Source: Acidobacteriaceae bacterium (lineage in GTDB: Bacteria; Acidobacteriota; Terriglobia; Terriglobales; Acidobacteriaceae). Taken from it: 64,000 nt of DNA. Numbering within the stretch: position 1 is the first letter of the stretch; each line of letters opens with the position of its first letter. The notes under the pieces are model-generated. The model was not told the DNA's origin, made no database searches, and saw nothing but the letters and a program-made list of their open reading frames with translations. The position numbers were made by a program, and so were the translations under genes. Of the stretch, positions 19,778 to 23,015 are shown piece after piece. The stretch is taken from NCBI GenBank assembly GCA_003152695.1, contig PMAT01000115.1, forward strand, positions 38,384 to 102,383. Reading direction: 5' to 3'.

Positions 19778-20239
19778 CTACTCCGCGCAGCTGTGATCGT
19801 GGATGATCCGCCAGCCCTCAGGGAACTTGCGAAAGACCAGCGTGAACACACCATGGGGCTGCTTGCCATCCGGCATGATGAGCTGAAACTTCCCGCGCAC
19901 GAATGCGGAATCGGGACCCAGCGTCCGCACCTGCAAATCGCTGAACGACAATGTTCCCATGGCATGCCCCTCCGATTGGTAGCTGCGACGGTAGCGCTCC
20001 AGGGTTGGTTCCCATCCCTTGGTCTCAGTAGTGCCGGAAAAGAATGTCAGATCAGGCGAGCGCCAATAGCCGTTCATGAACAGTTCCAGATCGTGATGGT
20101 TCCAGGCATCCACCTGGGATTGCAGGACCGCTTGAATTGCCTGGTCCGCACTCGATGTAGCGGTGTGGTGAACCTGCGCGGGCAGCGAAACAACTACTGA
20201 CAAAAGCACCACGGCGAACCCAAGACCGAACTTTGTCAT
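19778..20239 (-). CDS. Exported NTF2-like (DUF4440/SnoaL) protein
   Basis: A 153-aa protein with a signal peptide (GFAVVLLSVVVSLPAQ). The mature part follows the DUF4440 pattern: QSQVDAWNHHDLELFMNGYW, then SPDLTFFSG, ERYRRSYQSEGHAMGTLSF, and the closing strands FVRGKFQLIMPDGKQPHG and GWRIIHDHSCAE. Such cone-shaped domains bind small ligands, and none can be named here. GGAGG lies six bases before the ATG at 20239, which fixes the start. It is monocistronic between panB and the SYLF gene. Confidence 0.82.
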   Translation of the reverse strand: MTKFGLGFAVVLLSVVVSLPAQVHHTATSSADQAIQAVLQSQVDAWNHHDLELFMNGYWRSPDLTFFSGTTETKGWEPTLERYRRSYQSEGHAMGTLSFSDLQVRTLGPDSAFVRGKFQLIMPDGKQPHGVFTLVFRKFPEGWRIIHDHSCAE

Positions 20240-20367
20240 CTGTACCTCCGCTCGCAGCAGTGTAGCCGAGTCGGATAGAAGGCTATACTTTTGGGACGTC
20301 AATGACGCTCGGCGCACAAAAAAGCGGCGAGCCGAAGCCCACCGCTGCGTCGCGACTACAAAGTGGT

Positions 20368-21240
20368 TTAGTGCGCCTCGGCCTGCGCCTCGGCCTTGCC
20401 GCGGCGGACGGTTGCCAGGAAGTGATCGGCGGCCGCCGGCGGCTTCACCTGTCCCAGCAGCGTCGGACGGAAGCGCTCCGGGCGTCCGTACAGGGCGACC
20501 GTGGAATCGTCGTCTTGCTTGATCACCGCGCCGTTCAGGGTCAGTCCGGCAAACAGACCGCGGGTGCGCGAATAAGCCAGCACCTCTGCCTTCATCTTCC
20601 AATCGGTGGAGGCGCTGGCGTCGCGGCCCACCGGGCCGGCCGCCACGCTGCCGTTAGCGCCCAGCTTAAATTTGGAACTCAACAGATCGTTCATGCCCTG
20701 CTGGTTCATGATCAGCATCACCAGGTCCGCAGCCTGGACGCCGATCTGCAAACCCCAACTGCCCCCGGTGATGACAAAGAAAGCCGGCGCGCTCCAACCA
20801 TGGTCAGTGCGGCACGTCGCCACCCCCCGGCCATGCTCGGCGCCAAAGACGAAGCCGCCTTTCACCATGGAGGGGACCACGGCCACGCACTTCGCGCTCT
20901 CGAATACCTCGTTCGGAATACCTTTGTCGGGAGCGCTCAACAATTCATTCAAAATCTTGGAAGAATCGTCCAGCCGGGCCATGACTTTGTCGCGCTCCTC
21001 TCCAGCCTTGGTGCCTTCATTCTTCGCGTCTGCCTTTTCCTGATCGGCAGCATTCTGGTCCTGTGCCGCGGCGTTCCTGTGCGCTTGATCTTGCGCATCG
21101 CTGTTCTGGGTGTCGGTTGGGGTGGTCTGCGTGGCAGTATTGTCGCTGTTGGGATTGGCAGTATTACTTTGATTGTCCTGCGCCAACATGGTGAATGCGC
21201 AGAACATCAACAAGGCCAACAGAATTCCGATTCTCTTCAT
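20368..21240 (-). CDS. SYLF (Ysc84-like) lipid-binding domain protein
   Basis: A 290-aa exported protein with a signal peptide (LLALLMFCAFTMLAQD). A low-complexity Asn/Gln/Asp/Ala linker follows (about 20-75) and then a SYLF domain (about 85-265): SSKILNELLSAPDKGIP, AKCVAVVPSMVKGGFVFGAE, GRGVATCRT, FVITGGSWGLQIGVQAADLV, VLAYSRTRGLFAGLTLNGAV. In eukaryotes SYLF binds phosphoinositides; bacterial members are secreted and of unsettled role. AGGAGGG precedes the ATG. A single gene. Confidence 0.9.
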   Translation of the reverse strand: MKRIGILLALLMFCAFTMLAQDNQSNTANPNSDNTATQTTPTDTQNSDAQDQAHRNAAAQDQNAADQEKADAKNEGTKAGEERDKVMARLDDSSKILNELLSAPDKGIPNEVFESAKCVAVVPSMVKGGFVFGAEHGRGVATCRTDHGWSAPAFFVITGGSWGLQIGVQAADLVMLIMNQQGMNDLLSSKFKLGANGSVAAGPVGRDASASTDWKMKAEVLAYSRTRGLFAGLTLNGAVIKQDDDSTVALYGRPERFRPTLLGQVKPPAAADHFLATVRRGKAEAQAEAH

Positions 21241-21408
21241 GACTTTTGCGTCCCTCCTGGGAAACCCGCTGAACGTGCCTGGGTTCCTCGTCCTTGTATT
21301 TGGATGGCGGATTTACGTAGCGGGTTTGCGAGCCGGAGGTGGTTTATCGGCGGGAAACTTACAACCTGACGGAGCCGGGGGGTAGTGGGCTACTTTGAAA
21401 ACGTCGAG

Positions 21409-21813
21409 TCATAAAAGGTGGTCAGGGTCAAGCCAGACGATTTGAAACAGGTTGTCGATTAGGAGACCGTGCACCCGCCATTGTTGATTTCTGACGGGCG
21501 CGAACTGCCAAGCGTCATGATAAGCCAACTGATCTTCGTCGAGGGTCGAGAATCCCTCTGGGTGATTCGTTGTATCGAAAACAATTATGTGCCGACGATC
21601 TTGGTTATTTTGGTCGGTAAACTGGGCAACTGTCCAATGGCTGTACAGTTGAATGGATTCGATCAGAGCTTGTAGGAATTCAACATTGCAGCGCTGGAGG
21701 GAGAACTCATCGAGGCTAATATCTAGATACTTAAATGAGAACTCTAGGAGTCTTTCATCGTCTGCCTGAAAGTCGGGCGCAGGAATCCTGCGCCCTTGAT
21801 TGATGTTAGACAC
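21409..21813 (-). CDS. Putative toxin partner of a Panacea-domain antitoxin
   Basis: A 134-aa protein beginning three bases after the stop of the Panacea-domain gene, so the two form a tight antitoxin-toxin style operon. No named domain is recognised. The C-terminal half (RRHIIVFDTTNH, QQWRVHGLLIDNLFQIVWLD and a final PDHLL) has the layout of small RelE/HigB-like proteins, which end in a strand pair with His/Asp residues. This similarity is weak and based on pattern only. The gene is less GC-rich than the surrounding chromosome, which suggests transfer. It could also be a non-toxic accessory protein. Confidence 0.6.
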   Translation of the reverse strand: MSNINQGRRIPAPDFQADDERLLEFSFKYLDISLDEFSLQRCNVEFLQALIESIQLYSHWTVAQFTDQNNQDRRHIIVFDTTNHPEGFSTLDEDQLAYHDAWQFAPVRNQQWRVHGLLIDNLFQIVWLDPDHLL

Positions 21814-21816
21814 CCG

Positions 21817-22275
21817 TTATTGCTGCGTTTGCAGCAATGAAGAGTAAAAGCGCCTCATCACCTCCGTGTCGATGACAGCGTTACATGGTTCATCAACGGG
21901 CCTGTCTCCTCGGGCGACCCTCCACGGTTCTTCTCGGTGAGTGAGGCTTTCCAGCCTCGTCGCTTGAATGCTCCCGTAGGCATCCAAAACCGAGTTAATG
22001 TGAGCGGTCACGCGTGCGTCCGCAACTGGCGATACCGTGCAATCAATTGCATTCCACCGATATCCCTTAAACTTTCTGAAAACGGATGGAACGACCGGGC
22101 CATGCACCCAAGCCTCAATTGAGTCATGGAACAGCGGTTCTCCGGTAAACGCTAGATTCCACGCTTGGGCATAGTACAAGAGCTTTTGCAGTTTGAGATT
22201 CGTAATCTCAATCCCGCGCTCCCGAGAGAGGTGGATAATCGTGTCGGCAATTTGTTCCGCCGTGTAGTAAGTCAT
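21817..22275 (-). CDS. Panacea-domain (DUF4065/SocA-like) protein, probable antitoxin
   Basis: A 152-aa protein with the family core: YYTAEQIADTIIHLSRERG, ITNLKLQKLLYYAQAWNLAF, the ExWVHGPVVPSVFRKFKGY segment, and a helical C-terminus. This domain is known as the promiscuous PanA antitoxin, encoded next to many unrelated toxins, and as the SocA ClpXP adaptor. The ATG at 22275 gives the family-typical N-terminus; the open frame to 22326 is longer. A GGGGCGG stretch lies upstream. The partner gene starts three bases downstream. The regional base composition is AT-richer, as expected for an acquired module. Confidence 0.88.
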   Translation of the reverse strand: MTYYTAEQIADTIIHLSRERGIEITNLKLQKLLYYAQAWNLAFTGEPLFHDSIEAWVHGPVVPSVFRKFKGYRWNAIDCTVSPVADARVTAHINSVLDAYGSIQATRLESLTHREEPWRVARGDRPVDEPCNAVIDTEVMRRFYSSLLQTQQ

Positions 22276-22368
22276 TTTATCCGCCCCTGTTTTGCACACG
22301 TGTGTGCATATAAAATTAGATGCCAAAGCGGTGAAAATGTCACGTTAAATAATGCTAATACCCAGATT

Positions 22369-22530
22369 CTAGGCCGCCTTTTCTTCTTTTTTCCCGAATT
22401 CTAGCAACCCCACCAATTCTCCCAAGCGCCAAACGTGGTCTGTGAGTCCCGCTTCCATCGCTGGTGTAACCCGCAGCGACTGGTGGACGCGGCAGAAGTC
22501 GTAGTGCATGTAATTGAGGGCAGCCGGGAC
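22369..22530 (-). pseudogene. 3' remnant of a transposase gene
   Basis: On the minus strand the frame ending at TAG 22369-22371 codes for ALNYMHYDFCRVHQSLRVTP, then AMEAGLTDHVWRLGELVGLL. This is the C-terminal end of IS1-like transposases found widely in soil bacteria (YNFCRVH...TPAMEAGLTDHVW). The upstream part of the gene is missing: the frame runs into unrelated sequence before the neighbouring gene stop at 22554. It is a scar of an insertion next to the toxin-antitoxin pair. Confidence 0.72.
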
Positions 22531-22553
22531 ACATCGCGGCTGGAGGGAAGAAG

Positions 22554-23015
22554 CTATGCGCGGCGCTTGCCAGTGGACGATTGCCAGGGGCGTTGGGGAC
22601 GCTCCGCTTCCGGCAGATCGCGTCCACCTATGCGATCGTACATATACGACTCGCTTACCGTGCCCAGGCCTTCATTGTAGAGGCTGATGGCGCCGGTCCC
22701 TTCCTTCAGCTCGTCCGTGAACTGGTGCAACGCTGTGAGGTGGTCGGCGGTAGCTGGATACTCGGCTTTGGTGGTCTTCAAGACCTTTTGGTAGCCATGA
22801 TCGACCAGCTTTGAGATCTCGCCATCGATGAGGTATCCGGGATAGGCGAATAGCTTGATCCCACCATCCTCGGTGCGCTCAATAGCGGCCGAGCAGTGGT
22901 GCTTCTTCAGAAACACCCGGTTACTGGTGCCCGGAGCTTCCAGCACGTCGAATTCATGACTGCGTAACCACGCCAGCGCGTCTTCGTACGATTTCGCCTT
23001 GATCTTTTTGGTCAT
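22554..23015 (-). CDS. Conserved-looking hypothetical protein
   Basis: A 153-aa protein starting MTKKIKAKSYEDALAWLRSH. It contains VFLKKHHCSAAIERTEDGGI, GYLIDGEISKLVDHGYQKVL, and a helical region ending in FTDELKEGTG with SLYNEGLGTVSESYMYDRI. The composition is soluble, with a basic N-terminus and tail. No family could be named. An ATG three codons earlier (23024) is the alternative start. The insertion remnant at 22369-22530 abuts its 3' end, so the last residues may not be original. Confidence 0.6.
   Translation of the reverse strand: MTKKIKAKSYEDALAWLRSHEFDVLEAPGTSNRVFLKKHHCSAAIERTEDGGIKLFAYPGYLIDGEISKLVDHGYQKVLKTTKAEYPATADHLTALHQFTDELKEGTGAISLYNEGLGTVSESYMYDRIGGRDLPEAERPQRPWQSSTGKRRA

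Follow-up and report, generated by a model that had tools for sequence, protein, structure and literature searches.

A stand-alone Panacea gene and its 134-aa partner

Panacea is a hyperpromiscuous antitoxin domain. In the Panacea survey, its partners fall into 88 clusters, most of them unnamed (PMC8832971). The window, by which we mean the whole stretch of 64,000 nucleotides of an Acidobacteriaceae bacterium analyzed here, contains a Panacea gene followed by an unassigned small gene. What does this small gene encode, and is its product the toxin of the pair?

We read both genes as open reading frames on the minus strand. The first gene, panA (21817–22275, ATG at 22275, stop TAA at 21817–21819 included), encodes a 152-aa stand-alone Panacea-domain antitoxin candidate. 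The Panacea (DUF4065) core that the earlier note had placed in this gene is matched by PF13274 with E = 3.7e-21 and 76.6 bits at a cut-off of 25.7, and phrog_1281 also matches the protein (E = 8e-43). The SocA_antitoxin equivalog model NF047745 gives E = 6e-25 and 87.9 bits, which is below its cut-off of 190. Therefore, we call the first gene a PanA and do not claim SocA identity. SocA of the type VI toxin-antitoxin system SocA-SocB likewise has a Panacea domain and its model partly matches PanA; the system differs in that PanA reaches 88 of the 190 bits needed. The mechanism of SocA is that of a proteolysis adaptor. The PanA of Hormoscilla is a tandem duplication, a single ORF with the complete Panacea domain twice (L016:1893-2873 and L019:3941-4921); in L017 this ORF is broken.

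The partner gene, the panT candidate (21409–21813, stop at 21409–21411 included), starts with GTG at 21813. This start is supported by the N-terminal IPA text, which is common to the Acidobacterial relatives. As had been noted earlier, the two genes lie three bases apart; the gap is the CGG at 21814–21816. This layout resembles that of PanAT systems (Kurata et al. 2022, PMC8832971), in which a stand-alone Panacea gene comes first, a small unrelated partner second, and the spacing is minimal. The patchy, mobile distribution described there is also similar. The difference is that the partner lies outside the validated PanT families named in that text, i.e., membrane peptides, nucleotide cyclase-like proteins, MazF-like RNases, toxSAS and Fic/Doc. 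The MqsR family added by the 2023 Panacea paper does not cover it either. The partner family may be one of the unnamed clusters of the survey (PMC8832971).

Genomic setting of the gene pair

The GC content is about 50% over 21250–22250 and about 57–64% in most of the surroundings, which bears out the AT-richer patch described before. The transposase remnant reported next to the pair is real. It is a C-terminal remnant at 22369–22509 on the minus strand, adjoining the module on its upstream side. Elsewhere in this genome its peptide is matched 13 more times, several of these matches lying in ORFs of 230–340 aa. The panA-partner module itself is present in one copy. Genome G448, from the same genus, shares synteny with the window at panB and at the genes of 22.55–23.7 kb, but carries only some 115–160 bp in place of the window interval of approximately 19.9–22.56 kb. 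Thus, the module lies in a variable segment. The DNA absent from G448 (19900–22560, about 2.65 kb) comprises most of a DUF4440-like gene, a Ysc84 gene, panAT and the IS remnant. The same pair occurs in genome G321 at an unrelated locus, just upstream of mnmE, and the flanking genes differ among the window, G321, and the plasmid and phage copies of the pair.

Just upstream of the panA start, at 22293–22308, there is a 16-bp palindrome, TGCACACACGTGTGCA (arms TGCACAC and GTGTGCA around AC), a possible operator. An equally good palindrome appears in 1.75% of shuffles, which is suggestive only. Among the relatives examined, a comparable palindrome precedes panA in L012 and is missing in L013–L015; we therefore claim no operator.

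Linkage of the partner to Panacea

The linkage of the two genes was assessed by a scan of 84,980 species genomes that used only the partner (a three-sequence alignment and the partner's own motifs) and made no use of Panacea. The scan returned 59 partner loci from several phyla, including Acidobacteria, Cyanobacteria, Desulfomonile, Fraserbacteria, Clostridiales, Cohnella, Roseateles and Thiomargarita. In 53 of them PanA is located directly upstream, mostly overlapping the partner gene and otherwise nearly so. The other six are a PanA fragment at a contig end (L065), two loci cut by contig ends (L061 and L064) and three truncated remnants (L063, L067 and L070). Partner homologues occurring without a Panacea gene had been named as the finding that would speak against the pairing. 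It turned out that all full-length close homologues among the 59 loci are Panacea-paired. Panacea is missing only from remote relatives, such as proteins of about 99 aa on plasmids, which follow another small gene. The pair was also found in a viral contig (L008), in Bacteroides phage BI-TP1 and on a Parabacteroides plasmid, and in remote form on a Rhizobium plasmid.

In Acidobacteriota, the partner occurs in 3 of 396 genomes, each time with Panacea. Since Panacea itself is present in only 28 of 297 genomes, chance adjacency is excluded, and because the pair is found again in other phyla, the pairing is far above chance. The strict cross-phylum linkage of a Panacea antitoxin gene to the toxin-candidate partner is thus well supported. 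The distances of PanA and partner sequences correlate with r = 0.92 (permutation maximum 0.35). Without cyanobacteria, the correlation drops to r = 0.37 (p = 0.004), so kinship of the cyanobacteria explains much of the high value. The dN/dS of close pairs is 0.04–0.36.

A single-sequence scan of the genome contigs with the window partner gave no match, and neither did a tblastn search with it of the plasmid and phage collections. Weak plasmid matches (Roseibium/Labrenzia VOC proteins, Phaeobacter) were taken as chance.

Sequence families matching the partner

Pfam, PADLOC and PHROG searches with the window partner stayed at noise level. Its residues 108–132, the C-terminal hairpin, match the NCBIfam model MAG6450 (NF046006) with 26 bits, below the cut-off of 40. 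Among the 41 aligned members of the partner family, 40 match MAG6450 (best E = 9.8e-9), and 40 match phrog_8366 (best E = 3e-11). The window protein thus resembles MAG6450 through its hairpin and differs in falling below the cut-off; the MAG6450 model carries no assigned function, and to our knowledge neither MAG6450 nor phrog_8366 has a described one. A match to gp41 of phage SPO1 (E = 0.1) was dismissed as noise, and a sequence profile search of the PDB returned chance matches only, for example beta-secretase with E of about 0.6. Some partner homologues carry a C-terminal extension of about 50–90 residues (L008:4902-5636, L011:2471-3223, L062:4866-5498), which in L008 contains a zinc-finger-like CxxC pattern.

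Predicted fold and candidate active site

The earlier note had suggested predicting the structure of the partner. We modelled the window partner (pLDDT 80.4, pTM 0.75) and a Nostoc relative (pLDDT 90.5, pTM 0.84) with AlphaFold2 and compared the models with the PDB using Foldseek. The predicted order of elements is a strand, two helices and three strands, and the N-terminus of the window protein is disordered. For the Nostoc model, PDB ranks 1–33 are taken by toxins of the RelE superfamily, apart from rank 31, the insecticidal protein Txp40. The list is headed by P. vulgaris HigB, also in its 70S ribosome-bound state; in ranks 1–10, HigB has probabilities of 0.80–0.91 and E = 0.034–0.1. The PDB neighbours of the window model are almost all RelE, HigB, YafQ and YoeB toxins, with ParE lower in the list. 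The predicted topology fits the BECR fold (strand, two helices, antiparallel strands), although the best single E is only 0.034. Each match taken singly is weak (none at or below 0.001, rmsd 4–8 Å), and the TM values against the PDB neighbours are about 0.5–0.6 by target length. Against viral models, the Foldseek matches were all either unnamed or implausible. When hhalign was run with reversed controls, the partner family showed no link to HigB, YafQ or ParE (probability below 1%). The HigB-like family PF05015 and the other known BECR families in Pfam are unmatched by the window protein and its 40 aligned relatives. As the individual matches are all weak and sequence profiles reveal no link, we regard the RelE/HigB (BECR) fold predicted for the partner as likely, not proven.

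We confirm the C-terminal text WRVHGLLIDNLFQIVWLD pointed out before; conservation within the partner family peaks there. R74, F88, R113, V126, W127, D129, H132 and L134 are invariant in all 41 partner sequences, and H75 and H115 are nearly invariant. The hairpin (residues 113–132, R113 VHG...VWLDPD H132) is encoded at 21418–21477 on the minus strand, and the 19-residue spacing from R113 to H132 is kept in 40 of 41 members. The hairpin aligns with the end of HigB, WRITFQFINGDAYILNYEDYH, at equal length and without gaps. The active site of S. pneumoniae HigB includes R73 and K92, likewise separated by 19 residues; of the RNase mutants of this protein, R73A is the most affected, losing about 70% of the activity (PMC7984235). 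R68, R73 and K92 of this protein have been matched to K54, R61 and R81 of RelE (PMC9098466). The active site of GraT is a cleft around the C-terminal His92, and its disordered N-terminus is required for mRNA cleavage (PMC6393540). BECR superfamily toxins carry catalytic basic residues on strand 3 and at the C-terminus. Judging by conservation and this spacing, we propose R113 and H132 as the basic residues at the HigB active-site positions, a putative catalytic pair. The analysis thus names residues for mutation.

The partner is similar to the HigB group (PF05015; P. vulgaris HigB, GraT) in its best fold matches, in the length of its C-terminal hairpin, where Arg and His are likewise separated by 19 residues, and, in the case of GraT, in a disordered N-terminal segment (PMC6393540). 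It differs in having no sequence homology to HigB detectable by profile comparison and in its size (134 aa compared to about 92). Nor are the antitoxins related, HigA being a helix-turn-helix protein whose gene follows that of the toxin.

Interpretation and alternatives

We consider it likely that the module is a type II toxin-antitoxin system whose toxin is a divergent RelE/HigB-fold protein, probably a ribosome-dependent mRNase, neutralised by PanA. PanA would be the first product of the operon, and PanT would be translated next, probably by coupling. Free PanT, given its predicted fold, would most likely enter the ribosomal A site and cleave mRNA, using Arg113 and His132 of the hairpin together with the conserved Arg74-His75. 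Direct binding by PanA would keep it off the ribosome. Loss of PanA or its triggering, for instance by a phage, would free PanT and stop growth. Counting against this reading are the weakness of every single fold match, the lack of a profile link to HigB, YafQ or ParE, the sub-cut-off score for MAG6450 and the eight Panacea partners that others found non-toxic in E. coli (PMC8832971). The earlier note had taken the partner for a possible new toxin type. This holds insofar as the family has neither a name nor a Pfam model. The fold predicted for it, however, is that of the well-known RelE/HigB (BECR) toxins, so that a divergent variant of an established toxin fold is more likely than a new kind of toxin. 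RelE/ParE is among the recurring folds of the later Panacea network (PMC10440598), and ParE domains are recorded in the literature among Panacea partners. Panacea goes unmentioned in a 2025 review of 13 BECR families (PMC11980606). The present analysis places one widespread unnamed family of Panacea partners, by prediction, on the RelE/HigB fold.

Both mRNases and gyrase inhibitors share this fold (PMC11980606). A Panacea pair whose RelE/ParE-fold partner acts on DNA gyrase, in the manner of ParE, or on tRNA would suit the additional conserved features of the partner (R74-H75, H115 and WLDPDH) and the ParE structures in the lower part of the Foldseek list of the window model. We nevertheless think it rather unlikely, since the nearest fold matches are HigB, YafQ, YoeB and RelE, with ParE weaker, and the partner has Arg and His at the predicted positions of HigB active-site residues. 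It is less probable still that the partner is an accessory or co-regulator of PanA and no toxin. In its favor, the partner lacks a sequence-level match to any named toxin, and its toxicity is putative. Against it, the fold neighbours of the partner are toxins, its remote relatives on plasmids are paired with a different small gene, some amid toxin-antitoxin genes, and direct toxin neutralisation is known for stand-alone Panacea (PMC10440598).

Finally, the pair could be a decayed, non-functional copy left in this genome by a mobile element. The adjoining transposase remnant, the absence of the interval from the same-genus genome and the single copy in the genome would agree with this. However, neither ORF is truncated, and both retain the invariant residues of the family and the two-gene arrangement. 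The nearest relatives are only about 41–50% identical, and over such a distance a copy evolving neutrally would not have kept its reading frame, which makes decay very improbable. The reading of the module as a toxin-antitoxin pair with a RelE/HigB-fold toxin thus remains the one we favor, and the pair offers a stand-alone Panacea case for probing direct neutralisation of such a toxin.

Remote relatives and a possible exchange of the antitoxin

Profile comparison linked the partner family to remote Panacea-paired proteins (L006, L007, L158 and L192) at 98.6% with E = 1e-15, the reversed control giving 0.1%. These proteins were linked in turn to the proteins of about 99 aa without Panacea (95%, E = 3e-8, control 0.7%), which are encoded on plasmids after a gene for 90–102 aa, some of them amid other toxin-antitoxin genes. 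That one effector domain has differing partners gives it, we infer, the look of a toxin family. We propose, tentatively and with somewhat more doubt than belief, that an unnamed and strongly diverged RelE-type toxin family has swapped its antitoxin between Panacea and an unrelated protein of about 93 aa. It would then be a widespread new class of Panacea toxins, present in Acidobacteria, Cyanobacteria, phages and plasmids, that stops translation and may serve phage defence. The analysis also ties the MAG6450 family and the plasmid two-gene unit to likely toxins.

This two-gene plasmid unit is found at L159:1195-1800, L193:897-1500, L194:933-1494 and L195:812-1400. It consists of a 90–102-aa protein with the text GQISLGKEFAG, AbrB-like by look only, and the MAG6450-like protein of about 99 aa. 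All four units are annotated as hypothetical, and two lie near other toxin-antitoxin genes. At L003:54-1782, an AAA_21/DUF3696 ATPase gene is followed by a gene for a 293-aa protein with a MAG6450-like C-terminus, possibly an ATPase-plus-effector defence operon.
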